This document shows, piece after piece, positions 45,082-63,877 of a stretch of 64,000 nt of DNA. Position numbers and translations under genes: made by a program. Source of the DNA: Acidobacteriota bacterium (lineage in GTDB: Bacteria; Acidobacteriota; Holophagae; Holophagales; Holophagaceae). The notes under the pieces were generated by a model. It was not told the DNA's origin. It made no database searches and was given only the letters and a program-made list of their open reading frames with translations. The DNA is taken from NCBI GenBank assembly GCA_021794095.1, contig JAJYRN010000014.1, positions 22,065 to 86,064 on the forward strand, written 5' to 3'. Position 1 is the first letter of the stretch, and each line of letters begins with the position of its first letter.

Positions 45082-46749
45082 TCAGAGCAGCGTCTGGGGC
45101 GCTTCCTGGCCATGCCCCCCGCTGTTCAGGCCGTAGCTCTTGAGCCTCCGGTACAGCGTGGACGATCCGATCTGGAGCTGCTCGGCGGCCCGCGTCTGGT
45201 TACCGCCATTCAGGTCCATCACCGCGAGGATGTAGTCCTTCTCGACCTCTTCAAGGGATCGGACCATCCCCGGGGTGGCCACGGGTTTCGGGAAGGCTTG
45301 GCGGATTTCCTCGGGCAGATCCTCGAGTTCCACGCGGTTGCCAGGTGCGAGCGCGACGGCCCGCTCCATGGTGTTTTCCAGCTCGCGCACGTTGCCCGGC
45401 CACTCGTAGCGCAAGAGCTGATCGGCGGCACTCGGAGAAATGCCCGAGATCTTGCGCTTCATCCACAACGCCGCGCCCCCGAGCAGCACCCGCGCAAGGG
45501 GCAGGATGTCATCCCGGCGCTCCCGGAGGGGCGGCACTTGCAGTTCGACAACCTTGAGCCGGTAGTAGAGATCTTGCCGGAAGGCGTTGACGGTGACGCC
45601 GAGCGCGAGGTCGCGGTTCGTCGCGGCCAGGATGCGCACATCCACCGGCCGGCTCTTGTTCTCGCCGACGCGCCGGATCTCCCGTTCCTGGATTGCCCGC
45701 AGGAGCTTGACCTGCATGCCCGGTGAGATCTCGCCGACCTCATCCAGCAGCAGCGTCCCGCTGTTGGCCGCCTCGAAGAGGCCCGGCCGGTCCTGGATCG
45801 CGCCGGAGAAGGCGCCGCGCGCGTGGCCGAAGAGCTCGCTTTCGAGGAGCGTCTCCGTGATGGCGCCGCAGTTGACCGCCACGAAGGGGCGACCCGCGCG
45901 CAGGGATTCGTCATGGATGAGCCGTGCGATCCGTTCCTTGCCCGAGCCGCTCTCCCCCGTGATGAGGACGGTGGAATCAACCTTGGCCACCCGGCGGGCC
46001 AAATCCACCACCTGCCGCATCTTGGGGCTCTTGGCGACGATCCCCAGGGGCTCCTCGACCTCGGGAGCCACCCGGATCAGGGCCCGGCGGTGCTCGTGGA
46101 GCTTCCGTTCGGACAGCTTCAGAGTCTCCGTGACCCGGTTGAGCGAGATATCGAGGCACTCCTTGAGGAGGTTCGGCTCGAAGAAACGCAGTTCCCCGGC
46201 CCGCTCCTCGCCCCATGCCTCCCGGGTGCGCCCGGAGAGGTGGCAGACGGCGCTCCCCTTGCAGACGCAGCGATCCTCGAGGACGTAGATCTCCTTGCCG
46301 GCGCTCCGGCTGAGGTAGCCGCTGGTGAGGCCGCAGATGGTCCAGCACACGGGCACATCCGAGCGCCCGAAATGCAGGAGGTGCTGCTCCGCCTCGTAGG
46401 AGGAGTGAATGACCATACCCTCCCTGGAAAGGGGCTCCGTGCTGCCTGGTTCAACCCGGAAGAGGCCTTCCAGGGCGTGGATGCGGATGCCCGCGTTCTG
46501 CCAGTCTTCCGGGCTGTCCCACTTGAACTCGGCCTGCATGGCCTCGGCCATCCGCCAGCCATGGGCGAACCCGAACTGGGTGAGCACGGTGCGGGCGGCC
46601 AAGTGGCCGAAGTTTTCGACGAGGTACTTCCGCAAAAGCCCCATCGCCACGGCATCCAGGACCAGCGCGCGCTGGCCGGCGAAGCGGATCATGCCCCCTT
46701 GCGGGTCCACCTGCAGCAGTTCATCGAGATCGAGATCACCGATGCCCAT
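45082..46749 (-). CDS. Sigma54-dependent activator with XylR_N and V4R domains
   Basis: This resembles XylR/DmpR-type regulators. Domains in order: XylR_N (residues about 10-115), V4R small-molecule-binding domain (about 115-185, CWTICGLTSGYLSRSAGKEIYVLEDRCVCKG), AAA+ (about 215-455) and a Fis-type HTH (TRAAEQLQIGSSTLYRRLKSYGL). Walker A is GESGSGKE, Walker B LLLDEVGE. The sigma54-contacting loop reads GAFSGA rather than GAFTGA. It is 555 aa. It is divergent from the REC-GGDEF-EAL gene. Effectors of the family are often aromatic ligands, but the ligand here is unknown. Confidence 0.92.
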   Translation of the reverse strand: MGIGDLDLDELLQVDPQGGMIRFAGQRALVLDAVAMGLLRKYLVENFGHLAARTVLTQFGFAHGWRMAEAMQAEFKWDSPEDWQNAGIRIHALEGLFRVEPGSTEPLSREGMVIHSSYEAEQHLLHFGRSDVPVCWTICGLTSGYLSRSAGKEIYVLEDRCVCKGSAVCHLSGRTREAWGEERAGELRFFEPNLLKECLDISLNRVTETLKLSERKLHEHRRALIRVAPEVEEPLGIVAKSPKMRQVVDLARRVAKVDSTVLITGESGSGKERIARLIHDESLRAGRPFVAVNCGAITETLLESELFGHARGAFSGAIQDRPGLFEAANSGTLLLDEVGEISPGMQVKLLRAIQEREIRRVGENKSRPVDVRILAATNRDLALGVTVNAFRQDLYYRLKVVELQVPPLRERRDDILPLARVLLGGAALWMKRKISGISPSAADQLLRYEWPGNVRELENTMERAVALAPGNRVELEDLPEEIRQAFPKPVATPGMVRSLEEVEKDYILAVMDLNGGNQTRAAEQLQIGSSTLYRRLKSYGLNSGGHGQEAPQTLL

Positions 46750-46779
46750 GGGTTGTTCCCGTCATTCAAATTGAACGAA

Positions 46780-46807
46780 AGGATACATCATCTTGATCAA
46801 ACCACAA
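46780..46807 (-). promoter_or_regulatory. Candidate sigma70 promoter for the activator gene
   Basis: On the minus strand TTGTGG and TATCCT are spaced by 16 bp (CCACAA at 46802-46807 and AGGATA at 46780-46785 on the plus strand). They lie about 30 bp before the ATG. Confidence 0.35.
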
Positions 46808-46827
46808 AGGAGATTGGCGAAATAAAT

Positions 46828-46855
46828 TTGACAAATAATTTTAAACATATCTGAT
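46828..46855 (+). promoter_or_regulatory. Candidate sigma70 promoter in the divergent spacer
   Basis: A perfect TTGACA (46828-46833) is followed after 16 bp by TCTGAT (46850-46855) in an AT-rich patch. It would give a long leader (about 235 nt) for the GGDEF-EAL gene. Confidence 0.3.
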
Positions 46856-47032
46856 GATCGGCAACCCTCAACCCAAAGAACAGATGGGCCATCAATCAGG
46901 GCTTTGCTACGGCTGGCGCTTTTGGAAGGGGCCCGATTTCGAGGCAATGACTCCTTCATCTTGATGGGGGCAGTTCCCCCATCGTAGAGATGAATGGTTG
47001 GCAAGTCGCTGTCATGAAGGCACCTGGAGAAC

Positions 47033-47048
47033 TGGCATAAAGGATGCA
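47033..47048 (+). promoter_or_regulatory. Candidate sigma54 (-24/-12) promoter for the GGDEF-EAL gene
   Basis: TGGCATAAAGGATGCA has the GG-N10-GC spacing of sigma54 promoters and 9 of 12 core consensus positions. It lies about 45 bp before the ATG at 47095 and next to the divergent sigma54 activator. Confidence 0.6.
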
Positions 47049-47094
47049 CGTAAGCTCCGGCTAGGAGCTTGATTATGGAAGCAGGATCGTTGCC

Positions 47095-49293
47095 ATGCTG
47101 ATCAAAGTGGCAGAAGGGAAGGGCGATCAGCCCTGGCCCAAGCGAAACGTCACCTCTTCGGTGAAACGGTTCTCTGCACTACCTAGGGTTCGTTCCTTTC
47201 TCTCCTTTCCGCCCAGCTTGATCCCTAAGCTGCCCATGGCCAGGCAGACTGCTCAAGCGACCGCGGTGGTACCGAAAAAGGATCCAACACCTATTCTTTG
47301 CGTCGAGGATGACCGGGCCACGCGCCTCCTCCTCAAGCACATTCTCGGGAAGCGGTTCTCCCATGTCCTGTTCGCTGAGGATGGCGCGAAGGGCTTGGCG
47401 ATCTTCAGGCGAGAGCACCCCCCCATCGTCATCACCGACATCCAGATGCCGGTGATGAATGGGATTGACATGGCGCGTGCGATCAAGGGCCAAGCTCCGC
47501 ACACCCAGGTCATCGTCATCACCTCCAACGATGCATCAGCGGCGATCCTTTCGGCGGTTGATGTGGGAGTCATTGACTATGTCCTGAAACCCATCGCCGC
47601 GGAGCGGCTCGATTCGGCCGTTGACAAGTGCTTTCAGGTCAGCAAACTCGAACGGGCCCTTCGACGCTCGAAATCCAGGACCGAAGGCATTCTCGAAAGC
47701 ATCGGCGACGCCTTCTTTGCCTTGCAGAAGGATTGGTCTTTCACCTATCTCAACAAGAGAGCCGAGGATCATTTCAAGATCCCGCGGGCCAAGCTGCTCG
47801 GCAGCTCCTTCATGGATCTGGATCCCGGACTGGTGGGCCCCCATCAGGCCTATGCCGAAACCATGGCGTCCCAGGAGAAACGGTCGTTCGAGCTGTTCGT
47901 GCCCGGCCTTGAACGGTGGCACGATGTCAGCATCTTTCCCCAGGATGGCGGCATCTCCGTGTACTTGCGGGACATCACCGAGAAAAAGAAACATGAGGAC
48001 GAGATCCAGTCCCTCGCCTTCCACGACAAGCTCACAGGACTACCCAATCGGGCCTTGCTACAGGAACGGCTCAACCACACCATCCAGTGGTGCAAGCGGA
48101 GCGGCCGGCGAGGGGCAGTTCTCTTCATAGATCTGGACAGATTTAAGGCCATCAACGATTCCATGGGCCACGATGCCGGGGATCAGGTCCTGCAGGAGGT
48201 GGCCAAGCGCTTGCCTTCCTGTCTGCGGGAATGCGATACCGTGGCCAGACTCGGCGGGGACGAATTCGTCGTTCTCCTGGAAGGGTTCGAGCATCCCGAC
48301 AACATCCACTCCGTGACCCACCGCCTTCTCCTTGCGCTGTCCCAGGAGATCCTGGTCCAGGGGCTTCCACTCAACATCACCTGCAGCATCGGGATCTGCA
48401 TCATTCCGACGGATGGGGAGACCGTCGAGGCGGTGCTCAAGGCCTCCGATATGGCCATGTACCACAGCAAGGACCACGGAAAAAATGCCTATCACTTCTT
48501 CAGTTCCGAGATGAACACCGAAAAGAAGCAGTTCCTCCAGCTGGAGATCGCCCTCAGGAAATCTGTCAAGGATCATGATTTCATCCTCCACTACCAGCCT
48601 CAATTCGACCTGCGCACGCTGGAGCTCATCGGCTTCGAGGCGCTCGTCCGCTGGCGGCATCCCGAGCTGGGGGTGATTCCTCCTGATGCCTTCATTCCCC
48701 TGGCCGAGGAAACGGGGCTCATCCTCCTGCTGGGCGACTGGGTCATGGAAACTGCCTGCGGCCAGACCCGGGCCTGGATGGACAGCCATCCCAAGCCGCT
48801 CCGCATGGCCGTGAATCTATCGGGCCGCCAGTTCTGGCAGAGCGACCTGGTGGAGACCATCGCCAGGGGCCTCGCCAAGACTGGCCTCAACCCGGACCGG
48901 CTGGAGCTGGAGATCACGGAGAGCATGGTCATGAAGGATGTGGATCGGGCCATCGGCAAGATGCATGAACTGGCTGCCATGGGGATCCGGCTGTCCATGG
49001 ACGATTTCGGCACGGGCTACAGCTCCTTGGCCGCCCTCAAACGTTTTCCCATCCACACCCTGAAGATTGACAAATCCTTCATCAGGGACATCACCACCAA
49101 TCCCAATGATGCGGCCATCTCGGCTTCCATCATTGCCCTCGCCCACACCATGAACCTCACGGTGGTGGCCGAGGGCGTGGAAACGTCGGAGCAACTGGCG
49201 TTCCTCCTGGAGAAAGGCTGTGAGATCGGTCAAGGCTATTTCTTCAGCAAGCCGCTCCCGGCCTCGGAGGCGGAGCTGATGCTCGTGAGTTAA
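47095..49293 (+). CDS. REC-PAS-GGDEF-EAL protein (cyclic-di-GMP enzyme)
   Basis: A response-regulator receiver (about residues 65-185, phospho-Asp in VITDIQMPVMNG) is followed by a PAS-like segment (ILESIGDAFFALQKDWSFTYLN), a GGDEF domain with intact ARLGGDEFVVLLEGF, and an EAL domain with IGFEALVRWRHPE, LELEITESMVM, LSMDDFGTGYSSL, LKIDKSFI and VVAEGVET. The EAL catalytic residues look complete. At 732 aa the start is uncertain: ATG 47095 has a weak AGGAT, and ATG 47236 (MARQTAQ) is possible. It probably both makes and degrades c-di-GMP. Confidence 0.92.
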   Translation: MLIKVAEGKGDQPWPKRNVTSSVKRFSALPRVRSFLSFPPSLIPKLPMARQTAQATAVVPKKDPTPILCVEDDRATRLLLKHILGKRFSHVLFAEDGAKGLAIFRREHPPIVITDIQMPVMNGIDMARAIKGQAPHTQVIVITSNDASAAILSAVDVGVIDYVLKPIAAERLDSAVDKCFQVSKLERALRRSKSRTEGILESIGDAFFALQKDWSFTYLNKRAEDHFKIPRAKLLGSSFMDLDPGLVGPHQAYAETMASQEKRSFELFVPGLERWHDVSIFPQDGGISVYLRDITEKKKHEDEIQSLAFHDKLTGLPNRALLQERLNHTIQWCKRSGRRGAVLFIDLDRFKAINDSMGHDAGDQVLQEVAKRLPSCLRECDTVARLGGDEFVVLLEGFEHPDNIHSVTHRLLLALSQEILVQGLPLNITCSIGICIIPTDGETVEAVLKASDMAMYHSKDHGKNAYHFFSSEMNTEKKQFLQLEIALRKSVKDHDFILHYQPQFDLRTLELIGFEALVRWRHPELGVIPPDAFIPLAEETGLILLLGDWVMETACGQTRAWMDSHPKPLRMAVNLSGRQFWQSDLVETIARGLAKTGLNPDRLELEITESMVMKDVDRAIGKMHELAAMGIRLSMDDFGTGYSSLAALKRFPIHTLKIDKSFIRDITTNPNDAAISASIIALAHTMNLTVVAEGVETSEQLAFLLEKGCEIGQGYFFSKPLPASEAELMLVS

Positions 49294-49389
49294 ACGTAGA
49301 CCCATGGCCCGCTACATCTCCGGGTCGAAGCCAACAGCAGGATGTTTCTTGTCGTCATTGAACAATGCCTACGATCACCGGGAGATCTC

Positions 49390-51042
49390 TTGGGCAGCCT
49401 TCGAAATTGCGGAATCTGCTTCGGGGTATCCGCGGTTGTGGTGGCCATGCCCGTCCCTGTCGTTAGGCCAGTCCATACGGTCCGGCCTGTCAAGCCCTGG
49501 AATGTCCTGGAGGCCCAGAAAGCAACCATCGGAAAAATCGAAATCGTAATCGGTGATGTCTTCGATCTCAGCAGACCCGATGAGAACATTTGGGTGGGCC
49601 GGATGGCTGACCACCTTCATGCCTCCACTCGGGAGATCGTCATCCGCCGGGTTCTTCTCTTTGGGGTGGGCGAGCCCGTTCGAGAACGGCAAATCTATGA
49701 AACGGAGCGGCTCCTCCGTGCGCTCCCCTTCGTGAAGAACGCCCATATTGATCCCGTCATTCGACCGGATGGGACAGTGGTGGCAGTGGTGCGCGTTCGT
49801 GATGCCTGGACCACTCAGGTGAATGCGGGCTACTCGCAGGTGGGGGGCCAGAAATCCATGAACCTAGGCGTGGATGAAAAAAATTTCATGGGTTCGGGCA
49901 AGAGCGTGGCTTTCGACCTTTCCAAGGACCACGAGCGCAGTACCTGGGGCTTTGCCTATGGGGATCCCCAACTCTTTGGGAGCCGCTGGACCCTAAGTGC
50001 CCACACGCAGTACCTCACAGACGGCTTTGTCCGAAGCCTCCATCTGGAACGACCCTTCTTCGCCCTGGACACACCTTGGTCTACAGGGGCGGCCATGTCC
50101 CAGTGGCATTCCAGCCTCTACGTTTATGATCAGGGCATCCAAGTCTTTCAGGTTCCGTTCGTCCAGGATGAGGTCCGCCTGTCAGGGGCTATGGTCATAC
50201 GCAAGTCCGGGAACCGGGTCTGGCGCGGAGGCCTTCTCGCCAAGCGGCAGGACACCAGCTACGGGCTTATCACCCAAAGCGTTCCACCGGGAACCCTGCC
50301 GATGCCCACCCTGATGAATCGGCGTCTGCGGGGACCGGCCCTTACTCTTTCCACCCAGGAGGATGCTTTCGAGAGTTTTCAGGATCTTCAGGGAATGGAT
50401 ACACCCGAGGACTACAACCTGGCTTGGGGCGGCGATTTGGAACTGGGACGCTACACCCGGTCCTGGGGATCAACCCTGTCGGCCCCCTTTTTCAGGGTCC
50501 GGGCGAATAAGGGATGGTCATCCTCAGACGAGGATCTCACCCTTTTTTCGGCATCCTGGGATGGGCGTAAACCCGCAACGGGCATTCAAGACAGCCACCT
50601 TGGCCTTTCGCTCACGCAGTACCACAAGTTGACTCCGGACCAGATCCTCGCGGGTCTGGTGGTCGTGGATGTGGCCAAGCGCCCCGATCCGGAAACCTGG
50701 TACTACGTGGGGGGTGACCAGGGCCTGAGGGGGTACCCCAATCAACTCCATCCAGGAGATGCTCGCTGGGTCGCGTCTTTCGAATATCGGTATCTCACGG
50801 AGCAGCGTTGGTGGGGCTTGGTGCGGTTGGGGTACAGCGCCTTTGCAGACCTGGGATCCGTTCGTAAGTTGGATGGGCGGGGCTGGTCAAGAACCTATTC
50901 CGATGTAGGCGTCGGACTTCGGCTTGGCAATCTCAAGAGCTCCATGGGCCGCGTGATCCTTCTGAGCGTGGCGGTTCCCTTGAATCGTGAGCCCTACCAA
51001 TCACGCTGGCAGTTCATGATCGGAAACACTGTGCGCTTCTGA
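49390..51042 (+). CDS. BamA/TamA-like POTRA-barrel outer-membrane protein
   Basis: A probable signal region (GSLRNCGICFGVSAVVVAMP) precedes one POTRA-like domain (IVIRRVLLFGVGEPVRERQIYETERLLRALPFVKNAHI, residues near 80-120) and a C-terminal barrel ending SRWQFMIGNTVRF, with the Phe typical of barrel export signals. GGDQGLRGYPNQL resembles the conserved RGY loop of Omp85 proteins. TTG 49390 has GGGAG 5 nt upstream and I prefer it to ATG 49342. It is shorter than BamA, so it is an accessory Omp85 relative. Confidence 0.75.
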   Translation: MGSLRNCGICFGVSAVVVAMPVPVVRPVHTVRPVKPWNVLEAQKATIGKIEIVIGDVFDLSRPDENIWVGRMADHLHASTREIVIRRVLLFGVGEPVRERQIYETERLLRALPFVKNAHIDPVIRPDGTVVAVVRVRDAWTTQVNAGYSQVGGQKSMNLGVDEKNFMGSGKSVAFDLSKDHERSTWGFAYGDPQLFGSRWTLSAHTQYLTDGFVRSLHLERPFFALDTPWSTGAAMSQWHSSLYVYDQGIQVFQVPFVQDEVRLSGAMVIRKSGNRVWRGGLLAKRQDTSYGLITQSVPPGTLPMPTLMNRRLRGPALTLSTQEDAFESFQDLQGMDTPEDYNLAWGGDLELGRYTRSWGSTLSAPFFRVRANKGWSSSDEDLTLFSASWDGRKPATGIQDSHLGLSLTQYHKLTPDQILAGLVVVDVAKRPDPETWYYVGGDQGLRGYPNQLHPGDARWVASFEYRYLTEQRWWGLVRLGYSAFADLGSVRKLDGRGWSRTYSDVGVGLRLGNLKSSMGRVILLSVAVPLNREPYQSRWQFMIGNTVRF

Positions 51043-51044
51043 TG

Positions 51045-51185
51045 GGCGACGATACGGGGAAACAGGTATAGTCCACCATCCGGACCAAAGATCGCGGCAG
51101 GATTCAGAACGCCTCCTACCTCCAGGGGATTGCCCGGTGCCGGTTCCATGAGCAGCCCAAGGCGTTGCAACTGAAAGCCACTCAT
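51045..51185 (-). pseudogene. 5' remnant of a GH130-type glycosidase
   Basis: From ATG 51185 the frame reads MSGFQLQRLGLLMEP, then NPLEVGGVLNPAAIFGPDGGLYLFPRIVA, matching from memory the N-terminus of GH130-type mannoside phosphorylases/glycosidases. Homology stops at residue 47, 3 bp from the stop of the upstream BamA-like gene; beyond that the ORF runs antisense into it. Its ATG overlaps the stop of the HAD remnant, as in a former operon. Confidence 0.65.
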
Positions 51186-51532
51186 GGTTGTTGCTCCTGG
51201 CTGGGCACTGAGCAGGGACTGCCATCCGCGCACGCAACAATGGCTTCGATCACCCGCTTCGTCTCGTGAGGGCCTTCGACCTGAATGGGCAGAGCACCCG
51301 CTTCTCTGACCGGATAATCATTGCCTCCAGGAAACAAGGCATCTCCAATGAAAAGCATGTCCTTGATTGCGATGCCGAGTGTGTCCCTGAGCTTTCTGAT
51401 TCCATAACCCTTGTCAATGCCCTGGCGGGTGACATCAATGGAGGTGGTACCGCCCAGGTGGACTGAAAACTCGGGGATCAGGTCAGCAAGGAACGATTGG
51501 ATGACCTTGCGCTTGGTGAATGCAGGATGGCG
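51182..51532 (-). pseudogene. 3' remnant of a HAD-IIB phosphatase
   Basis: Translated by hand the frame gives [24 protein letters not shown], then GTTSIDVTRQGIDKGYGIRKL and LFIGDALFPGGNDYPVREAGA. This is the C-terminal half of a HAD-IIB hydrolase (sugar-phosphatase/phosphomannomutase type) with GDALFPGGND as the catalytic Asp motif. The N-terminal half is missing. It is not in the ORF track because no start codon begins it. It is fused out of frame to the gpmA remnant. Confidence 0.75.
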
Positions 51533-51732
51533 CGTGTCAACATGGAGGTGAAGGCGATATCAAACAAAAAGCCATGCTCTTTAAGGTCTCGACTGGCTTT
51601 CAGTCCTTCTACCTTGCCTTGATCAGACAAATCCACATCGTCCCAACCGGTGAAGCGGTTTTCCCTATTGGACAGACTCTCACCATGTCGGAGGAGATGT
51701 CGGAGGAGAACCAACGTTCTGGTCAGATTCAT
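51526..51732 (-). pseudogene. gpmA: 5' remnant of phosphoglycerate mutase
   Basis: The frame [30 protein letters not shown], followed by [38 protein letters not shown], is the N-terminus of cofactor-dependent phosphoglycerate mutase (normally about 230-250 aa). It breaks at residue 69 where a different frame of the HAD remnant takes over. A 12-bp duplication adds LLRH beside the catalytic RHG motif. I read it as a dead gene. Confidence 0.8.
51685..51708 (-). repeat. 12-bp tandem duplication in the gpmA remnant
   Basis: ATGTCGGAGGAG occurs twice head to tail on the plus strand. In the gpmA frame it duplicates LLRH. Confidence 0.9.
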
Positions 51733-51803
51733 CAATTTGTCTTCCATCAAGAACACCCATCTCGCTCACCACTTCAAGGCGAACATGGCTTCATTTTCAT
51801 GAG

Positions 51804-51819
51804 AGCAATCCATGTACCA
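51804..51819 (-). promoter_or_regulatory. Candidate sigma54 promoter of the gpmA remnant
   Basis: On the minus strand TGGTACATGGATTGCT has GG-N10-GC spacing and about 10 of 12 core consensus positions, including TTGCT. The start site would be near 51793, about 60 nt before the gpmA ATG. Confidence 0.6.
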
Positions 51820-52012
51820 CTTCTACGGGGTGCATTGGTTCGAAGTGATTGCCATATTCAAATAGCAGTTGCGCATACACTTATGGTTGCTTTTGCGCGA
51901 GCCAGGTTGCGGTCGTTTCCCAGGATGCACCGGCACATTGGCAATTGGCAGAAAGCGGATCTGGTCAATACGGCAGGCCCGATCAATCATCCTGACCCAA
52001 GCGCCGCGGTTT

Positions 52013-52044
52013 TCAAAATGATGCCCTCATGGACTCAAAATGAT
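52013..52044. repeat. Direct repeats TCAAAATGAT, candidate activator site
   Basis: TCAAAATGAT occurs at 52013-52022 and 52035-52044, start-to-start 22 bp or about two helical turns. The pair lies between the divergent gpmA and pdc promoter elements, about 90-120 bp upstream of the pdc one. TCAAAATGA recurs at 59172-59180 upstream of csbD. Confidence 0.45.
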
Positions 52045-52131
52045 CGGATCAGGCCATTCAGTCCAATAAACAAGTCTCCAACTAAATTAATTAACATCCT
52101 AATTGCTAATCCTTACACGCCTGTAGAAACC

Positions 52132-52147
52132 TGGCCTAAAAGTTGCT
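52132..52147 (+). promoter_or_regulatory. Candidate sigma54 promoter of pdc
   Basis: TGGCCTAAAAGTTGCT matches the TGGC and TTGCW halves with exact GG-N10-GC spacing. The predicted start near 52158 gives a 60-nt leader before ATG 52218. Confidence 0.7.
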
Positions 52148-52217
52148 CTTCGGTTCCCAGCTATTGGCAGTCTTGAAAAATCAGCCGGACAACCCGTTAG
52201 TGATCGAGGCCTGCAGG

Positions 52218-53882
52218 ATGGAATCCCTAGTCACAGTTGGTGAGTACCTATTGGACAGATTGAAAGAGCTCGGGGTGGATCATCTGTTTGCCGTGCCCGG
52301 GGACTTTGTCCTGGGCTTCCTCAACCAGGTTCTGAAGAGCGAGGTGGGCTACGTTGGAACCTGCAATGAACTCAACGCTGCCTACGCCGCAGACGGCTAT
52401 GCACGCATCAAGGGGTTGGGTGCGTTCGCCACAACCTTTGGTGTGGGAGAATTAAGCGCCATCAATGGAGTCGCTGGGGCCTACGCAGAACGGGTGCCCA
52501 TCGTCGCGATCACCGGGTCACCGGCGACGGCTCAATTCCGCAAGCAGCCGCTCCTGCACCACACCTTGGGCGACTATCAGATCCCGTTGAAGATGTACGA
52601 AAGCATCACGGTCGCATCCACCCAGTTGGAGTCGGGCGATACGGCACCGGCTGAGATTGACCGGGTGCTGTCGGCCTGCCTCGCCTATCACCAGCCGGTC
52701 TACATCAGCCTCCCGTCTGATGTGACGAGGATGACCTGTCCCCGGCCCAGACCGCTACTCCTTCCAGCCAACGCCCCAAGCGATCAGGCGACCCTTGAAG
52801 AGGTCATCACGGAGTCGCGGGGGATGCTCGAACAGTCCGCCAGGCCCCTGGTCATCTGCGATGTGGAGCTGGTCAGGTTCAAGCTCCACCAGGAGCTGTC
52901 CGCCTTCCTTGAGAGGACCGGGTTCCCCTACGTCACCATGATGCTTGGGAAAGGCATTCTGTCCGAACACCACCCTCAGTTCATTGGCCTCTTCGAGGGT
53001 GACAGGAGCCGGGAGTACGTCCGGCAGCAGGTCGAATCCTCAGATTGCATCCTGCATCTGGGCGCCCTGATGACCGATTTCAATACAGGTGGGTTCACCA
53101 CGAATCTCGATGACGCCAAGACCATCAAGGCGAACATCAGCAGCGTGAAGATCAAGCACCACTCCTACAAACATGTGCAGCTCAAGGATTTCCTTCTTGG
53201 ACTCGGGAAGCAACTTTCCATGCGTACGCCTGAGTCCATGAACATCCGCTGTGCTGCCGAAAGCTGCAGTCATCGGCATACCCAGCCCTTCTTGTCCGAT
53301 CCGCTGAAGCCCCTGACCATAAAGCGGTTCTTCGATCGGATGAGCCATTTCATCCAGAACGATTCAATCCTCCTTGCGGAGACGGGTGTCGCCTTGTTTA
53401 GCTCAGCCGAAATGCTGATGCCGGAGGGGGCCACGTTCATCGGGCAGACGTTCTATGGATCCATCGGCTACACCGTGGGTGCCACCCTGGGCGCCAGCCT
53501 GGCCGCCCCTGGCCGTCCGGTCGTGCTGTTTGTGGGGGATGGCTCTTTCCAGGTTACCGGCCAGGAGCTTTCGACCATGATCCGCAACAAGCTGCGTCCG
53601 ATTGTGTTTCTCCTCAACAACGATGGCTACACCATTGAGCGGGTGATAACGGATCATTCCTACAATGACATTCAGCCATGGACCTACCACAAACTCGTAG
53701 AGGTTTTCGGAGGCGGGCTGGGCCTGGATGTTCATACGGAGGGTGAGCTGGAGCGTGCGCTTGGAACCGCCAGCACGGCGGAGGGCCTCGTCTTCATAGA
53801 AGTCCATACCGGAAAGCTGGACTGTCCGGAGTCGCTTCGGAGTGCGGGTCGGTCCATGGCCAAAATCAACCAGCTCGATTGA
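52218..53882 (+). CDS. pdc: Thiamine-dependent 2-oxo-acid decarboxylase (pyruvate/indolepyruvate decarboxylase family)
   Basis: The enzyme decarboxylates pyruvate or an aromatic 2-oxo acid to the aldehyde using ThDP. CNELNAAYAADGYARIKG holds the catalytic Glu, LLHHTLGDY the His pair, and GDGSFQVTGQELSTMIRNKLRPIVFLLNNDGYTIE the ThDP-Mg motif. From ATG 52218 it is 554 aa, normal for the family. The upstream track start at 52143 falls inside the -12 element. Substrate cannot be fixed from sequence; the presence of adhP downstream favours acetaldehyde, while the adjacent amino-acid decarboxylase leaves phenyl- or indolepyruvate possible. Confidence 0.88.
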   Translation: MESLVTVGEYLLDRLKELGVDHLFAVPGDFVLGFLNQVLKSEVGYVGTCNELNAAYAADGYARIKGLGAFATTFGVGELSAINGVAGAYAERVPIVAITGSPATAQFRKQPLLHHTLGDYQIPLKMYESITVASTQLESGDTAPAEIDRVLSACLAYHQPVYISLPSDVTRMTCPRPRPLLLPANAPSDQATLEEVITESRGMLEQSARPLVICDVELVRFKLHQELSAFLERTGFPYVTMMLGKGILSEHHPQFIGLFEGDRSREYVRQQVESSDCILHLGALMTDFNTGGFTTNLDDAKTIKANISSVKIKHHSYKHVQLKDFLLGLGKQLSMRTPESMNIRCAAESCSHRHTQPFLSDPLKPLTIKRFFDRMSHFIQNDSILLAETGVALFSSAEMLMPEGATFIGQTFYGSIGYTVGATLGASLAAPGRPVVLFVGDGSFQVTGQELSTMIRNKLRPIVFLLNNDGYTIERVITDHSYNDIQPWTYHKLVEVFGGGLGLDVHTEGELERALGTASTAEGLVFIEVHTGKLDCPESLRSAGRSMAKINQLD

Positions 53883-53899
53883 ATGGAAAGAGGCGCCCC

Positions 53900-55699
53900 A
53901 TGGAGGATCAGAACATCGAGGATGGGCTTACGGAAAACCCGTTCCCAAGAGACTTCCATGGCTATTGGAATACTGGCGACAGCGACCGGAAAGATGCCCC
54001 TCTCTGGGCCAAATATCGCACCAAAATGGCGGGTGAATTCCCCTCTCCCTTCCGGAGCACCAAACACGCCCTTGCTGGGCAGGTCGAAACCTTCCTGGAG
54101 AAGCTCGACCAACTGCGCCCAGAGGAAAACGGCTCGGCGTATCTGGGGGCGAGTGGCGATCTGGCCTACGCGTATCCATGGGTGAAGAACGTGGCGATCC
54201 GTCAGGAGATGGGCGACCTCGATGCAGTCCTGGACGATGTGGTGAGTCTCTTCCAGGGAGCGCCGAACTGGGGCAGCCCTCTGACCTTGTGCAACGTCAA
54301 CCCCAATTCCAATACGGCCGCTCTCCTGGCCTCCATGATGTCGCAAGTGTTCGCGGCCAACATCCTCGAAGGGGAGTACGCATGGAATGTGCACCGGGCG
54401 GAGCTTGAAACCGCGGGAATGCTGGGCAACCTGTTCGGATGGAATCCGCTGAACACAGGCGCCATCTACACCTATGGTGGTGGCGGCTGTTGGACCTACG
54501 GGCTGAAGTACGGCCTGACTCGGGTTCTGCCGGATTCCCGTTCGAAGGGGGTGCGGAGCAACGCCAAGGTTATCTGTTCGCAACAGGCTCACTATGTTCA
54601 ACAGAACGCCACCGACTGGCTGGGGCTGGGCATGGACAACATCGTCCAAGTCCGGACGGATACCCGCACCAATCAAATGGACCTGGCCCATCTGGAGGCC
54701 ATCCTCTTGGAACTCACCTCCCAGGGCATTCCCGTGGCAGTGGTGGTCTGCACCATGGGTACGACCGATGCCGGCGCCTTTGATCCCATTGGGAAGGTGC
54801 GTGAAATCCTGGATCGTCATCCCAATCCGCCAGGATTCGGAAAGGCCATCCTATACGCCGATGCCGTCGTGGGTTGGTCCTGGATTTATTTCAAGGATTA
54901 CGATTTCGACCAGAATCCGCTGGAGTTTTCGGAGCGAATCCTTCCAATCCTGAAACGTAACGGATTGGCATTGAAGGAACTAAGCGTTGCGGATGCCGTC
55001 GGCATAGATTTCCACAAGGCCGGTTGGGCGCCCTATGTAAGCAGTTGCTTCCTTTACAAGAATGCGGCGGAATTCGAATCCATCCATCGCCGGGGGGAAG
55101 ATGCCTATCTTCAGGCGCGGACACCCTACAATCCCATGTACTACACCCTCGAAGTTTCACGAACGGCCTCAGGCTCCCTGGCAGGGTGGGCCACGCTGAA
55201 ATACTTCGGCATGGAAGGAATGCAAGCGATCCTGGGAGGGATTTTGGAATCCAAATATTACCTCCTCGATCGTTTGGCGTCCCTCCCTGAGTTTGTTTGC
55301 GTGAATCCGGACGATTCGAACCTGGTGACCTTGTTCCGCATCTATCCAACCGGAACCGATGCCAAGGCCCAATACCAGCGGGAGTTGAAAGATCCCACCC
55401 GGCGCTCCGAGCTTGTGCGGCACAATCAGTTGACCGAGGCCATCGGCATCCTGCTCTTCGAGTGGTACCGCTCCGGTAAGACGATCGATGGGAAATACAC
55501 ACCACACATGAGCTACAGCACGGGCTTCCGCACCACCACCTACAACCAGGATGGCGCGGAGGCGGAATCGGTCATCTATGCGCTCAAGATATTCCCGATG
55601 AATGTCTTCGTGACCTCGGAAGTCATGCGCTGGGCCTTGACCTGTGTCCTGGCAGCACGGGACGAAGTGATGAGGTCTCTTCCCAGCTTGGCCCCTTGA
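53900..55699 (+). CDS. PLP-dependent group II amino-acid decarboxylase
   Basis: Fold-type I PLP decarboxylase related to glutamate, aromatic-amino-acid and diaminobutyrate decarboxylases. NPNSNTAALLASM, CSQQAHYVQQNATDWLG, VVCTMGTTDAGAFDPIG, ILYADAVVGW and the PLP-lysine motif VGIDFHKAGWAPYVSS are all visible. ATG 53900 has AAAGAGG 6 nt upstream; 599 aa. It is 17 bp after pdc, so they form an operon. Substrate is not assigned. Amino-acid decarboxylation consumes a proton, which would suit an acid-response role (inference). Confidence 0.85.
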   Translation: MEDQNIEDGLTENPFPRDFHGYWNTGDSDRKDAPLWAKYRTKMAGEFPSPFRSTKHALAGQVETFLEKLDQLRPEENGSAYLGASGDLAYAYPWVKNVAIRQEMGDLDAVLDDVVSLFQGAPNWGSPLTLCNVNPNSNTAALLASMMSQVFAANILEGEYAWNVHRAELETAGMLGNLFGWNPLNTGAIYTYGGGGCWTYGLKYGLTRVLPDSRSKGVRSNAKVICSQQAHYVQQNATDWLGLGMDNIVQVRTDTRTNQMDLAHLEAILLELTSQGIPVAVVVCTMGTTDAGAFDPIGKVREILDRHPNPPGFGKAILYADAVVGWSWIYFKDYDFDQNPLEFSERILPILKRNGLALKELSVADAVGIDFHKAGWAPYVSSCFLYKNAAEFESIHRRGEDAYLQARTPYNPMYYTLEVSRTASGSLAGWATLKYFGMEGMQAILGGILESKYYLLDRLASLPEFVCVNPDDSNLVTLFRIYPTGTDAKAQYQRELKDPTRRSELVRHNQLTEAIGILLFEWYRSGKTIDGKYTPHMSYSTGFRTTTYNQDGAEAESVIYALKIFPMNVFVTSEVMRWALTCVLAARDEVMRSLPSLAP

Positions 55700-55766
55700 G
55701 CCCAGAAATCCGCCCTTGAGAACGTCCCCCGCAGCGCACGTTCACAGACGATGACGTCTTCCTCCT

Positions 55767-58106: not shown

Positions 58107-58140
58107 CGTATTCTCCAACAGCAGGGGGGGGCTAGAGCAA

Positions 58141-58398
58141 TCATCGCCACCAAAGCGCAATGACGACCCAGAACAGCCCAACGAGAAACATCAGCCACAC
58201 CAAGTCGCCGCCCCGTCCCCAGGACTGATGATGAGACGTTCTGGGAGAACCGATGGAACCTTTCCGGATCTCGCGACGCCGTTGGATGTACCTCGGATAA
58301 GGCGGACCCCATCCCCGGTAGCCCCACCCGTAGCCCACCGGAGCGAGGAGAAACATGAACATGAATACCATCCACAAAATCCACCATGTGCTCATCAT
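58141..58398 (-). CDS. Small membrane protein, 85 aa
   Basis: Two hydrophobic helices, one at each end (WWILWMVFMFMFLLAPVGYGW and LVWLMFLVGLFWVVIALWW), flank a basic, Arg/Tyr-rich loop. SD-like GGAGAAG precedes the start. It is 34 bp upstream of the H+-ATPase gene on the same strand. I do not recognise a family. Confidence 0.65.
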   Translation of the reverse strand: MMSTWWILWMVFMFMFLLAPVGYGWGYRGWGPPYPRYIQRRREIRKGSIGSPRTSHHQSWGRGGDLVWLMFLVGLFWVVIALWWR

Positions 58399-58417
58399 TC
58401 TACTTCTCCATTTATTT

Positions 58418-58455
58418 CGTGAGTTCCTGGTAAGCCAGCTTGCCAGGAACTCACG
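58418..58455. repeat. Long perfect-type hairpin between two small genes
   Basis: CGTGAGTTCCTGGTAAGC and GCTTGCCAGGAACTCACG form an 18-bp stem (one G-T wobble) around only CA. No T tract follows on either strand, so a normal intrinsic terminator is unlikely; an RNA-processing or attenuation element is possible. Confidence 0.7.
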
Positions 58456-58488
58456 TTCTATCCTTCGTCTCGGATTTCCTGATCTCTG

Positions 58489-58713
58489 CTACTTGTGCGA
58501 TCCGGCAAGGGTATGGGTTGAATGCTCATGAGCCTTTGTACTGTGTCCGTGAGCCTTTGTGCTGTGTTCAAGGGCCATCTTGGAGTGTTCATGTCCCTTG
58601 GCATCGTCCCCTGCTTCGTGGTGGACGGCGGCTAGGTGGTGATGCTTAGCGGCCTCCCCATAATGCTCAGCGGCTTTAAGATGGTCTGGCGTCGAGGGAT
58701 GTTTGATAGCCAT
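58489..58713 (-). CDS. Small His-rich stress-type protein, 74 aa
   Basis: The product MAIKHPSTPDHLKAAEHYGEAAKHHHLAAVHHEAGDDAKGHEHS is a helical, His/Ala/Glu/Lys-rich protein of a type seen in bacterial stress clusters (from memory). The C-terminal STKAHGHSTKAHEHST is a repeat. The start has AAGGAG 7 nt upstream. It is the first gene of the minus-strand set that ends with the H+-ATPase. The function is unknown. Confidence 0.7.
   Translation of the reverse strand: MAIKHPSTPDHLKAAEHYGEAAKHHHLAAVHHEAGDDAKGHEHSKMALEHSTKAHGHSTKAHEHSTHTLAGSHK
58529..58570 (-). repeat. 21-bp tandem repeat (two copies)
   Basis: TGAGCCTTTGTACTGTGTCC(G) at 58529-58549 is followed by TGAGCCTTTGTGCTGTGTTC(A) at 58550-58570. 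It encodes the STKAHxH repeats of the His-rich protein. Confidence 0.85.
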
Positions 58714-59219
58714 GGCTATTCTCCTTGGTATGTGTTTGCGGATGAGAATTTTGATTGACGGCAGTTTCTCGAATGGGCGGTCCGCGTGGTTCTCCCGCGT
58801 TGATCAGGACTCGATCCGAGCTCGAGGCTGGAAACCCTTCTAGATGCCAAACGCTGATCACTCGTGACTTCATGAAGGGATCTCTCGGATCAGGGCGATC
58901 AAGAACACCATGAGCAACAAAGGCAATTAATGAACCGTACTTTAAGACTTCCAAAATCAATATTTATAGATGTATTAACTCGCGGCTTCGACCTCGGTTC
59001 AATCAAGTTGGGGCCCCCGTTCATTCAATCTGAAGGGGTGATGCAATTAAGCGGGCCCTCCCGCTGGCTTTGGCCGTCACCGGACGTCTACTTCATTTGG
59101 GAGGGGTAAGGGGCGCGGGTGGCTTCACTTTGAGGCCCGTCTTCTTTCATATTGATTGGAAACGCGCGATTTCAAAATGAATTATATTTTTAATTGCATA
59201 TTTGATTGATTTTAGATTA
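58714..59219. other. AT-rich divergent intergenic region
   Basis: About 500 bp between the His-rich protein (minus) and csbD (plus), with an AT-rich end at 59.17-59.22 kb. The 94-aa minus ORF entering here has no supporting signal. It holds the csbD-side TCAAAATGA site and a weak minus-strand sigma54-like element. Confidence 0.5.
58922..58937 (-). promoter_or_regulatory. Weak sigma54-like element toward the H+-ATPase operon
   Basis: On the minus strand CGGTTCATTAATTGCC has GG-N10-GC spacing and TTGC, but a poor -24 half. It lies about 210 bp before the His-rich protein start. Confidence 0.25.
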
Positions 59220-59235
59220 TGGCCTAAAGAATGCG
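59220..59235 (+). promoter_or_regulatory. Candidate sigma54 promoter of csbD
   Basis: TGGCCTAAAGAATGCG shares TGGCCTAAA with the pdc element and keeps the GG-N10-GC spacing. A start near 59246 gives a leader of about 45 nt before csbD and excludes the track start at 59231. Confidence 0.65.
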
Positions 59236-59290
59236 TGACTCCATGGTGCAGCAAGCCCTCTTCCACGCTCGCCCCAAGGAGATCGCCGTT

Positions 59291-59470
59291 ATGAAATCAA
59301 GTACGAAGGACCAAGGCGCAGGGAAAATTCATGAGTTCATGGGCAAGGTTAAGAAGGCCGCTGGGGAAGTGACGGGCATCTCTCACCTCGAATCGGAAGG
59401 AACCGCTGAAATGATCAACGGCACCATTCAGAAGAAAGTCGGCGAAGTGGAAAAGGTTATGGGCAAGTAG
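59291..59470 (+). CDS. CsbD-like stress protein, 59 aa
   Basis: The sequence MKSSTKDQGAGKIHEFMGKVKKAAGEVTGISHLESEGTAEMINGTIQKKVGEVEKVMGK matches the CsbD family: GKVKKAAGEVTG and GTIQKKVGEVEKV are the paired family blocks. ATG 59291 has AAGGAG 8 nt upstream. CsbD proteins are general-stress proteins of unknown mechanism. It would be the first gene after the sigma54-type element. Confidence 0.85.
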   Translation: MKSSTKDQGAGKIHEFMGKVKKAAGEVTGISHLESEGTAEMINGTIQKKVGEVEKVMGK

Positions 59471-59636
59471 GTCTCTTCGCTGACATGCAAGAAGAAGATG
59501 CAAATAGACAAGTGGCCTAGGGCCCGATCAATCAGCTTCCCTGGTTGGGAACGCCGCCTCTTTAAATGTCACCACTCACGCACGGGAAAGCCGACCCCAA
59601 GCAATCGTGGGGTAGGTTTAGAATTGAGGAGATCTC

Positions 59637-59927: not shown

Positions 59928-60015
59928 AACCATTCGCAGATAGCGCTGGGTATGGAAACGACTGCCACTGAATCCGAAGCCAATCCCCTGGCCTCGATGC
60001 CAGAAGGAATCACCC

Positions 60016-61050
60016 ATGACAGGAAAGATGCAGGCCGCTGTTGTCGAGACGTTTGGTAGGCCTCTTGTTCTTCGAGAATGGGACATCCCATCTCCCGGGC
60101 CGGGTCAGATTTTGGTCAAAACAGAGGCCTGCGGCGTGTGCCATACCGATCTTCACGCTGCACGCGGAGACTGGCCGCTGAAGCCAACTCTTCCTTTCAT
60201 TCCTGGCCATGAAGGCATCGGATTGGTCGTCGCCATCGGATCAGGCGTAACGATCGTGAAGGAGGGCGACCGGGTTGGAGTCCCCTGGCTCTACTCGGCC
60301 TGCGGGCATTGCGAGTTTTGCCTGACGGGGTGGGAGACGGTATGTGCCAAAGCCCAGTTCGGTGGCTATTCCAAGAACGGAGCCTTTGCCGAGTACCTTC
60401 TCGCTGATCCCAATTATGTCGCCCATGTGCCTGCCGGCCTTGCAGCCAAGGATGCCGCACCGATCATCTGCGCAGGTGTCACCACCTACAAAGGGATCAA
60501 GGAAACCAATGCCAGGCCGGGCGAATGGATTGCCATTTCCGGGGCGGGTGGCCTCGGGCATCTCGCGATCCAATATGCCAAGGTGATGGGGCTACATGTT
60601 TGTGCGATTGACATTGACGATGGCAAACTCGCTCACGCCAGGTCCCTTGGGGCCGATATTGTGGTCAACGCCAAAGCAAACGATCCTGCATCAGCTGTCA
60701 TACAGGCTACCGGGGGAGGGGCTCATGGGGTTCTGATCACGGCGCCCTCACTCATCGCCTTTAAACAGGGTGTCGGCATGACCCGCAAGCACGGAACATG
60801 TGTTCTAGTCGGATTGCCCCCTGGCGAATTTCCGCTTCCCCTCTTCGAGGTGGTGGCGAATTGTTTGACCATTCGCGGTTCGTTTGTCGGTTCGCGCCAG
60901 GATATGGCTGAAGCGCTCTCCTTCGCAGCCGAAGGCAAGGTCAAGGCCGATATCGAGCTTCAAGCTCTCTCGTCGGTCAACCAGATTTTGGATCGCCTTG
61001 AGCATGGCGATGTGGCATCACGCGTGGTCCTAGACTTCGCGGGTAAGTGA
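60016..61050 (+). CDS. adhP: Zinc-dependent alcohol dehydrogenase AdhP-type
   Basis: Medium-chain Zn alcohol dehydrogenase, ethanol-active by family. Catalytic Zn ligands are in ACGVCHTDLHAARGDW and GHEGIG; structural Zn ligands are CGHCEFCLTGWETVC; the NAD site is SGAGGLGHLAIQYAK. At 344 aa it is full length. ATG 60016 has AAGGA 7 nt upstream. It is 26 bp before an acylating aldehyde dehydrogenase, so the two can convert acetyl-CoA to acetaldehyde to ethanol. Confidence 0.92.
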   Translation: MTGKMQAAVVETFGRPLVLREWDIPSPGPGQILVKTEACGVCHTDLHAARGDWPLKPTLPFIPGHEGIGLVVAIGSGVTIVKEGDRVGVPWLYSACGHCEFCLTGWETVCAKAQFGGYSKNGAFAEYLLADPNYVAHVPAGLAAKDAAPIICAGVTTYKGIKETNARPGEWIAISGAGGLGHLAIQYAKVMGLHVCAIDIDDGKLAHARSLGADIVVNAKANDPASAVIQATGGGAHGVLITAPSLIAFKQGVGMTRKHGTCVLVGLPPGEFPLPLFEVVANCLTIRGSFVGSRQDMAEALSFAAEGKVKADIELQALSSVNQILDRLEHGDVASRVVLDFAGK

Positions 61051-61076
61051 ACTGATTTGATACGCGCGCGATATAG

Positions 61077-62522
61077 ATGAGGCCCATGAGCGAGACGACA
61101 CCTATCAGCCATCCGATGTTCGACCTCCTGCCCAAGAGAAGTATGGAGGGCGAGTCATCGTGCCCCATTCCGCAATCCACCGACCACGGAGATCAGATCC
61201 TTTTCCCCACTGTAGATGCTGCCGTTTCTGCTGCGATTCAAGCACAAAGGGTCTTCCACGAGAATGGCCTTGAGGTTCGTCGGGCCGTCATTGAGGCGAT
61301 CCGTAAGACCTGCATCGCCAACGCCGAGCGCTGGGGCCGCATGGCGGTCGAGGAAACAGAGATGGGACGCGCCGAGGACAAGACGCTGAAGAACCTCCTC
61401 TGCGCCATTCGCACGCCAGGTGTGGAAGATCTGGAATCACGGGCCTACACCGGTGATAAAGGGTTGACTTTGGTGGAGTACGCCCCCTTCGGCGTTGTGG
61501 CCGCCGTAACCCCCTCGAACAACCCTGCCGCAACCATCATTTCCAACGCCATTGCCATTTTGTCCGCAGGCAATTCAGTGGTTTTTGCCCCGCATCCAGC
61601 CGCAACTAAAGTCTGCCAAGACGTACTGTGTGCATTGGCTTCGGCAGCCATTTCGGCTGGAGCCCCCTCAGGCATAATCACAACGGTCCTGCCGGGCTCT
61701 CGCGAGACGACCCAGGCCCTTCTGGCTCACCCTGGGACCAGCCTCAACCTGGTCACAGGAGGCCATGCCATTGTGAAAGTGGCCCTGAGCACGGGCAAGA
61801 TCTGCAAGACCATCGCGGCCGGACCGGGTAATCCGCCAGTGGTTGTGGATGAGACGGCTATCTTTCCAGCTTGCGTCGAGGACATCATTTACGGCGCGAG
61901 CTTCGACAACAACGTGTTGTGCGTCGCCGAAAAGGAAGTCATCGTGGCCGAGGCGGCGATGATTCGTTTCCTGGAAGGCCTTCGCAAGGATGCTCGGGCC
62001 TACGAACTTTCGCCCTCCGAAATGGATTCATTGGCCAAGCTCGTCATCAAAGATGGCGGCAAGGGTTGCAAAGACCCGGTCATGAATCGGGACTACGTCG
62101 GGCGCGACGCGGCAGTCCTTGCCAGAGGCATCGGTCTGGAGGTTCCTCCTGCAACGCGCCTGTTATGGGGCCAGGTATCCGAGGACCATCCCTTTGTTTG
62201 GACAGAACAGCTCATGCCAGTCCTGCCCGTCACCTCTGCAAGGGATGTGGATTCGGCCATTGAGTTGGCCGTTCAGGCTGAAGCAGGCAATCATCATTCC
62301 GCCGCGATGTACTCGACCAACATCGCAAACCTCAGCCACATGGGGCGGCGCATGCAGTGCTCAATCTATGTCAAGAACGCTCCAACCCTCTATGGCCTGG
62401 GCTTGGGTGAAGGCTATGCATCCATGTCCATCGGCACTCCGACCGGAGATGGCATCACCAAGCCTTCGCATTTCGTCAGACCCTTGCATTGTTGCCTCGT
62501 GGGCTACTTCCGGATCGCATGA
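61077..62522 (+). CDS. CoA-acylating aldehyde dehydrogenase (EutE/PduP-like)
   Basis: It reversibly makes acyl-CoA from aldehyde and CoA with NAD+. The catalytic Cys is in IYGASFDNNVLCVAEKEVIV, the nucleotide region in FGVVAAVTPSNNPAATIISNAIAILSAGNSVVFAPHPAA, and GPGNPPVVVDETA is characteristic of the EutE/PduP group. At 481 aa it has family length. The N-terminal sequence (MRPMSETTPISHPMFDLLPKR) is not an obvious encapsulation peptide and there are no microcompartment shell genes nearby. The start could also be ATG 61086. Confidence 0.9.
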   Translation: MRPMSETTPISHPMFDLLPKRSMEGESSCPIPQSTDHGDQILFPTVDAAVSAAIQAQRVFHENGLEVRRAVIEAIRKTCIANAERWGRMAVEETEMGRAEDKTLKNLLCAIRTPGVEDLESRAYTGDKGLTLVEYAPFGVVAAVTPSNNPAATIISNAIAILSAGNSVVFAPHPAATKVCQDVLCALASAAISAGAPSGIITTVLPGSRETTQALLAHPGTSLNLVTGGHAIVKVALSTGKICKTIAAGPGNPPVVVDETAIFPACVEDIIYGASFDNNVLCVAEKEVIVAEAAMIRFLEGLRKDARAYELSPSEMDSLAKLVIKDGGKGCKDPVMNRDYVGRDAAVLARGIGLEVPPATRLLWGQVSEDHPFVWTEQLMPVLPVTSARDVDSAIELAVQAEAGNHHSAAMYSTNIANLSHMGRRMQCSIYVKNAPTLYGLGLGEGYASMSIGTPTGDGITKPSHFVRPLHCCLVGYFRIA

Positions 62523-62523
62523 A

Positions 62524-62616
62524 ATGAGCCAACCAATACGCACCGTTGAAATGCTGAAGCCATTCTTCGCACTTCGGCAGGAAGCTGGCCGGAAATTGAC
62601 GAGGAGGAAGATATGA
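62524..62616 (+). CDS. Possible 30-aa peptide between aldehyde dehydrogenase and pfkA
   Basis: An ATG 1 bp after the aldehyde dehydrogenase stop gives MSQPIRTVEMLKPFFALRQEAGRKLTRRKI, ending in a TGA that overlaps the pfkA ATG (ATATGA). Its position would couple translation to pfkA. There is no clear SD, so it may be just a spacer. Confidence 0.3.
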   Translation: MSQPIRTVEMLKPFFALRQEAGRKLTRRKI

Positions 62617-63584
62617 AACGGATTGCTGTGTTAACCAGCGGAGGTGACGCTCCTGGCATGAATGCCGCAATAAGGGCTGTCGTGCGGACGGGACTCGCGA
62701 AGGGCTGGGAGGTACTCGGTGGCCGTCAAGGGTATTCCGGCTTGATCTCCGGTGATTTCTTCCCCTTGGGTTCCAGGAATGTCGGCGGCATCATCCAGCG
62801 AGGCGGCACCATCCTTGGCAGTGCCCGCAGCCCCGAATTCGAGACTCACGAGGGGCGATTGAAAGCCCTGTCCCAGCTTCACCGCAATGGGATCGAAGGC
62901 TTGATCGTTATCGGCGGCAATGGATCCCAGGCCGGCGCCTACGAACTGTCCCAGTTACGTTTTCCGGTCGTTGGCATAGCCTCGACCATTGATAACGACC
63001 TCCAGGGTTCCGATATCACGATCGGAGTGGATACAGCCCTGAACATTGCCTTGGAAGCCATTGACCGGTTGAAAGTCACAGCCTCCTCCCTCCATCGTGC
63101 TTTCCTCGTCGAGGTAATGGGCCGGAAATGCGGCTATTTGGCTCTTATGGCTGCGATTGCAGGTGGCGCCGAGGCGGTGATCATTCCCGAGATCGAGACG
63201 GATCCAGAGGCTGTGGCGGCCGAATTGCGAGCCGCCTACGACCGTGGCAAGCCTCACGCAATCATGGTGGTCGCAGAAGGCTCCCAATACGATGCCGAGG
63301 GAATGGCACACTACTTCGAGGTTCACCAGAAACGGTTGGGCTTCGAATTACGGGTGACGCGATTGGGACATGTGCAGCGAGGGGGGGCACCAGGTTCGTT
63401 TGACCGTTTGCTGGGAACTCGTTTCGGTGCTGCGTCAACCGAGCAATTGGCAAGCGGGGAACATGGCGTGCTGATTGGGCTTCTCAAAGGCGTTATCGCG
63501 ACCACCCCGTTAGCTGATGTTGTCGCCAACAAAAAATCATTGGATTTGGGTCTGTTGGAATTGGCGCACCTGTTAGCTCATTAG
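62613..63584 (+). CDS. pfkA: 6-phosphofructokinase
   Basis: Phosphorylates fructose-6-phosphate. VLTSGGDAPGMNAAIRAVVR is the N-terminal signature. The ATP/Mg loop reads GGNGSQAG instead of GGDGS, so the Asp that normally contacts Mg-ATP is Asn; IASTIDNDLQGSDITIGVDTALN keeps the catalytic TIDND. LVEVMGRKCGYLAL and RLGHVQRGGAPGSFDR bind the sugar phosphate. At 323 aa it has normal length. GAGGAGG lies upstream. Cofactor could be ATP or, less likely, PPi; the GGNGSQ variant is known to me as a recurrent clade. Confidence 0.9.
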   Translation: MKRIAVLTSGGDAPGMNAAIRAVVRTGLAKGWEVLGGRQGYSGLISGDFFPLGSRNVGGIIQRGGTILGSARSPEFETHEGRLKALSQLHRNGIEGLIVIGGNGSQAGAYELSQLRFPVVGIASTIDNDLQGSDITIGVDTALNIALEAIDRLKVTASSLHRAFLVEVMGRKCGYLALMAAIAGGAEAVIIPEIETDPEAVAAELRAAYDRGKPHAIMVVAEGSQYDAEGMAHYFEVHQKRLGFELRVTRLGHVQRGGAPGSFDRLLGTRFGAASTEQLASGEHGVLIGLLKGVIATTPLADVVANKKSLDLGLLELAHLLAH

Positions 63585-63764
63585 CATGCATGTCATTGAT
63601 GAACGGTTTGGATCCACTCCAAACGAAGGAGAAGGTCTGACGTAAGGGCCTTTTGCATGAACACCTGATGAATTTGACATGGTTTGTCGACTTCATGAGG
63701 ACAACCTTGGGCCTGCTCAGGCCGACCTGCATCGGCCGGGGATCCCAGCCCAGTACCACAGGCG
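63585..63764. other. Spacer after pfkA
   Basis: No supported gene or terminator. The small antisense ORFs here have no conserved pattern. Confidence 0.4.
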
Positions 63765-63875: not shown

Positions 63876-63877
63876 GT

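Follow-up and report, generated by a model that had tools for sequence, protein, structure and literature searches.

The window (the whole 64,000-nucleotide stretch of DNA analysed here) comes from a 2.99-Mb genome in an Acidobacteriota genus that is probably Geothrix or a near neighbour of it. It carries a gene for a thiamine-dependent decarboxylase, closely followed by a gene for a PLP-dependent decarboxylase-like protein with which it probably shares an operon. Upstream lie a sigma54-type -24/-12 element, TGGCCTAAAAGTTGCT, a pair of palindromes and, 5.5 kb from this putative promoter, the gene of an activator of the XylR/DmpR type (Table 1). The G+C content falls from 66-69% to ~58% just past the activator gene (46750-64000), and the decarboxylase and its neighbours therefore probably lie in acquired DNA. 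On the minus strand 5' of the decarboxylase gene, a piece of a histidine-phosphatase/phosphoglycerate-mutase gene (51478-51756) remains within a stretch that appears to be decaying.

Table 1. Genes, palindromes and predicted promoter elements in the window.
Feature	Position	Strand	Remark
XylR/DmpR-type sigma54 activator (XylR_N, putative V4R, AAA+, HTH_8)	45082..46749	-	assigned by domain matches
Palindrome pair just upstream of activator start codon	46765..46797
Palindrome TTCATCTTGAT	46955..46965		standard distance from the element at 47033
Second -24/-12 element TGGCATAAAGGATGCA	47033..47048	+	top generic-matrix match of the window; fifth among 1392 window sites with the genus matrix
Response regulator-PAS-GGDEF-EAL protein	47095..49293	+	putative target
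Omp85-domain protein	49342..51042	+	putative target; similar proteins behind such promoters in relatives
Palindrome 1 TTCAAAATGAT	52012..52022		putative activator site
Palindrome 2 CTCAAAATGAT	52034..52044		putative activator site; 22 bp from palindrome 1
Possible degenerate third palindrome TTCAGTCCAAT	52057..52067		tentative; the activator-proximal site of relatives is TTCAGTCCGAA
sigma54 -24/-12 element TGGCCTAAAAGTTGCT	52132..52147	+	reported site; predicted transcription start ~52157-52158
Thiamine-dependent pyruvate/2-oxoacid decarboxylase	52218..53882	+	class assigned by family
PLP-dependent decarboxylase-like protein	53900..55699	+	17 nt from stop to start
Weak candidate leftward -24/-12 element ACGGTTCATTAATTGCC	58922..58938	-	tentative; genus-matrix score only 5.5
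Palindrome pair, one mismatch	59003..59033
Three palindromes (59124-59134, 59146-59156, 59171-59181)	59124..59181
Third -24/-12 element TGGCCTAAAGAATGCG	59220..59235	+	second among 1392 window sites with the genus matrix
CsbD-like protein	59291..59470	+	similar genes behind such promoters in G012 and G066
Zinc alcohol dehydrogenase (AdhP family)	60016..61050	+
Acetylating-type aldehyde dehydrogenase	61077..62522	+
Phosphofructokinase	62613..63584	+

Three TPP-enzyme domains span the decarboxylase, which is homologous over its whole length to bacterial, yeast and branched-chain 2-oxoacid decarboxylases of known structure (PDB 2vbf, 1pyd, 1ovm and 1zpd). The closest NCBIfam model is indolepyruvate decarboxylase (TIGR03393), which it matches with 449 bits, below the cut-off of 946; no named NCBIfam equivalog is matched above its cut-off, and the enzyme is assigned by family only. 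We prefer the ATG at 52218 as its start codon, since alignments with homologues begin at the first residues read from this codon. A GAGG ribosome-binding site lies 8 nt 5' of this ATG, which would follow a leader of 60 nt, as in the original prediction, if transcription starts at 52158. A longer open reading frame from TTG 52143 is less favoured; this TTG falls within the -12 element.

The original prediction described a near-consensus sigma54 promoter, and a motif of this type is indeed present on the plus strand, with its GG (52133-52134) and GC (52145-52146) spaced 10 nt apart. Both halves, TGGC and TTGCT, match the consensus; the ACG of TGGCACG is replaced by CTA, which makes the label "near-consensus" a generous one. 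The bare motif TGGCN7TTGCW has 36 matches in the 2.99-Mb genome and a single match in the window, against 1.34 expected per 64 kb, and a generic sigma54 matrix places TGGCCTAAAAGTTGCT third in the window, with ~2.7 equal-or-better sites expected by chance per 64 kb. The motif alone was dropped as evidence for a promoter, its count being at chance level. With a matrix derived from other genomes of the same genus, the window being left out, TGGCCTAAAAGTTGCT ranks first among the 1392 GG-N10-GC sites of the window. Its above-chance standing is owed to the palindrome pair upstream and to the distance at which this pair lies.

The palindromes TTCAAAATGAT and CTCAAAATGAT are located ~90 nt 5' of TGGCCTAAAAGTTGCT, and a repeat finder recovers TCAAAATGAT twice, 22 bp apart, at this pair. 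The genome was surveyed by pattern searches and through chosen stretches. Perfect palindrome pairs occur four times in it: 5' of the activator gene, 5' of the decarboxylase gene, 5' of the CsbD-like gene (59125-59155) and at C10:377, and a control pattern does not occur at all. Four is a small count, and the case rests mainly on relatives of the same genus, from which 60 stretches around palindrome pairs were taken, with 87 pairs in total and the window excluded. Of these 87 pairs, 80 are flanked on one side or both by a GG-N10-GC site 64-67 nt away, compared with 1-10 of 87 in equally wide intervals placed at eight other gaps. The 72 distinct elements yield a genus motif of approximately NTGGCNCRAAANNTGC, and the 30 nt beside the -24 element are 75-81% A+T in these relatives. 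A TTCANNNTGAA-like palindrome pair, 21-22 bp apart, is conserved near the start codon of the activator gene, where most relatives also have a divergent element whose distance stays at 114-117 nt. Between the palindrome pair of the decarboxylase and TGGCCTAAAAGTTGCT there are 87 nt, a less common spacing that exceeds 65 nt by one 22-bp step; spacings of 86-88 nt with a good element are also present at loci L214, L219, L229 and L251, and the third palindrome at 52057, if accepted, would tentatively bring back the standard gap.

Because paired sites at a fixed distance recur at dozens of genes in the relatives, we regard 52132-52147, as judged from sequence, as very probably a genuine sigma54 promoter. 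The alternative is a chance match in an AT-richer stretch, the gene being read from an unseen sigma70- or ECF-type promoter or by read-through. Such a reading would be in line with the chance-level count of the bare motif and with the lack of conservation of the promoter 5' of decarboxylase relatives in other phyla, but it is very improbable in the face of the palindrome pair with its distance rule, the first rank obtained with the genus matrix, and a search of 51043-52300 in which no sigma70-like site was found. The decarboxylase promoter is known from one genome only: it is absent from the nearest relative that has the decarboxylase gene (G011, 73% identity), it has no conserved counterpart within the genus in the 1.2 kb upstream of the gene, and, L079 excepted, the -24/-12 element is not conserved upstream of the decarboxylase relatives in other phyla. 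In L079, which belongs to another lineage, TGGCACACACCTTGCT (L079:4221-4236) lies 28 nt before the ATG of a decarboxylase relative and is a still better sigma54 match. The sister genome G011 has a CsbD/YjbJ-like gene (L003:1261-1482) directly 5' of its decarboxylase gene, and the reported promoter is missing there.

The activator comprises an XylR_N domain (98.1 bits, cut-off 23), a V4R region that scores 26.6 bits, under the cut-off of 31, and aligns with the PoxR and MopR structures, an AAA+ sigma54-interaction domain (227 bits) and a C-terminal Fis-type helix-turn-helix, HTH_8 (52.6 bits). Its sensor domain is homologous to those of the phenol sensors MopR, PoxR and DmpR, and a CW...ED.C...C cluster is retained in the alignment with them. 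The loop of the AAA+ domain reads GAFSGA in this species, G011 and G001, and GAFTGA in most other members of the genus. A single RpoN is encoded in the genome (PF04552, E 1.4e-56), with the RpoN box ARRTVNKYRE. The activator's own palindromes lie ~16 nt from its start codon, which by analogy suggests autorepression; autorepression is known for XylR.

The activator gene is kept in 19 of the 47 genomes of the genus. Genomes with it hold on average 6.4 matches to the pattern and those without it 0.96 (p = 2e-6, a raw value that ignores relatedness), so that the palindrome pair is ~6 times commoner in activator-carrying genomes; G005, a fragmented assembly scored as lacking the activator, still has four sites. 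Because abundance tracks the presence of the gene, the palindromes are probably linked to the activator encoded at 45082-46749. A genuine sigma54 promoter could also be served by a different activator acting at the palindromes, the XylR/DmpR-type gene being a fellow target. The ~11 strong sigma54 activator domains in the genome, together with a palindrome-activator link that is itself sequence-based, leave some room for this reading, but we consider it quite improbable, given that the palindromes lie directly 5' of the XylR/DmpR-type gene in nearly all relatives and that their number follows the presence of this gene. On contig C10 of the same genome (L169:1-500), a 5' remnant of the activator gene with a palindrome pair is preserved, along with an intact divergent -24/-12 element, TTGGAATAGAACGTGC, before the gene of an Ig-like-repeat protein. 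The same arrangement is intact in G011, beside the activator, and the remnant suggests that the activator gene has been duplicated or moved.

The sequence statistics demonstrate the site and the palindromes, the constant spacing of the palindromes relative to -24/-12 elements throughout the genus, and the link of the palindromes with the presence of the activator gene. The proposed sigma54 control of the decarboxylase gene gains support from RpoN, the nearby activator, the paired palindromes and the same layout in the genus; no sigma54 promoter for such a decarboxylase gene was found reported in a literature search, which was not exhaustive. We consider it highly likely that 52132-52147 acts as a functional sigma54 promoter for the decarboxylase and PLP-decarboxylase-like genes and is activated from the palindromes at 52012-52044 by the product of 45082-46749. 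In this mechanism, an inducing signal would be perceived by the XylR_N/V4R part, freeing the AAA+ domain, and the activator would bind and oligomerize on the 22-bp-spaced palindromes. The AT-rich DNA between the palindromes and the -24 element would then bend or loop, allowing the AAA+ domain to open the sigma54-RNA polymerase sitting at 52132, and transcription would proceed from ~52158 through both genes. We infer that the response may serve under stress or energy limitation.

At least two further promoters of the same pattern are predicted in the window. One of them, at 47033, was retrieved by a looser single-palindrome geometry search with a background of several coding-sequence matches per genome; because of this background, only the match leading from 46955 to 47033, which fits an intergenic region, was kept. 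The other, at 59220-59235, is followed in order by the genes for the CsbD-like protein, the alcohol dehydrogenase, the acetylating-type aldehyde dehydrogenase and phosphofructokinase. The leftward candidate ACGGTTCATTAATTGCC points toward a P-type proton-ATPase-like gene. Taken together, the decarboxylase, the alcohol dehydrogenase and the acetylating-type aldehyde dehydrogenase fit ethanol/acetaldehyde metabolism.

In the relatives, target genes were picked by open reading frame position and codon-position G+C, and many of them fall into no family. An Fe/Mn superoxide dismutase lies behind such promoters in eight genomes; the other targets include BON, CsbD, ferritin-like, FMN reductase, AI-2E, MlaE and OmpA proteins, an alpha/beta hydrolase, a type III polyketide synthase, as well as a small lipoprotein-like gene with an Omp85-type gene behind it. 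On the basis of these families, the regulon looks like one of the stress or envelope type and not of aromatic catabolism, and the reported site looks like a member of a genus-wide sigma54 regulon that is stress-related in appearance. A classical response to aromatic compounds like that of XylR/DmpR, with the decarboxylase serving the breakdown of aromatic 2-oxoacids, would agree with the homology of the sensor domain to phenol sensors, with its retained cysteine-containing cluster, and with indolepyruvate decarboxylase as the closest, if below-cut-off, model for the enzyme. We nevertheless judge this response unlikely: among the Pfam-assigned targets, no ring-cleavage or ring-hydroxylation genes were found.

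Relatives of the decarboxylase (70-75% identity) are spread over many phyla (L006, L007, L010, L018, L031, L037, L056 and L062), and the neighbours of several of them belong to the same families as the promoter targets of the genus. These neighbours include superoxide dismutase, alpha/beta hydrolase (79-80% identity), FMN reductase (71%), BON, type III polyketide synthase, acetylating aldehyde dehydrogenase and P-type ATPase, so that the neighbourhood in other phyla looks like a mobile set of stress and fermentation genes. The exact palindrome pair is absent around these relatives. Returning to the stress-type reading, the XylR/DmpR-type activator might be the master switch of a general-stress-like sigma54 regulon and play the part that RpoS, SigB or EcfG have elsewhere; an island of fermentation genes gained by horizontal transfer (2-oxoacid decarboxylase, alcohol and aldehyde dehydrogenases, and proton ATPase) would have been wired into this regulon by promoters of the same pattern. 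We put forward this combined proposal only tentatively, as somewhat less than an even prospect.

The activator appears to share its domain order, XylR_N-V4R-AAA+-HTH_8, with XylR, DmpR and MopR; as in these systems, sites lie beside the activator's own gene and, as in Pu/Po-type promoters, palindrome pairs lie 5' of the -24/-12 element. Unlike them, the system described here has the palindrome TTCANNNTGAA recurring strictly every 22 bp and, in this species, GAFSGA in place of GAFTGA, and each genome appears to hold many scattered stress and envelope targets where those systems have one or two operons for catabolism. The general stress regulons of RpoS, SigB and EcfG overlap with this target set in CsbD, BON (OsmY type), superoxide dismutase, ferritin-like proteins and FMN reductase; those regulators are alternative sigma70-family factors, whereas the set described here would depend on sigma54 and an enhancer-binding activator. 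Reconstructions of sigma54 regulons in Desulfovibrio vulgaris (PMC4641369), in Clostridiales (PMC6615313) and across phyla (PMC12316311) follow the same logic, in which activator, upstream site and -24/-12 element are defined by comparison. Neither Acidobacteria nor Geothrix nor general stress comes up in the main text of the cross-phylum study (PMC12316311), and a search of open-licence papers found no description of this regulon.

What began as a guess about one site becomes a testable regulon, whose distance rule is tight enough for targets to be predicted from sequence. In a little-studied phylum, activators of a known aromatic-sensing class appear to control a large group of promoters with a stress-like character, and the decarboxylase locus would provide an example of a host regulator capturing acquired metabolic genes. 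If the stress reading is true, this would be an unusual general stress response, operating through sigma54 and an enhancer-binding protein and not through an alternative sigma factor.
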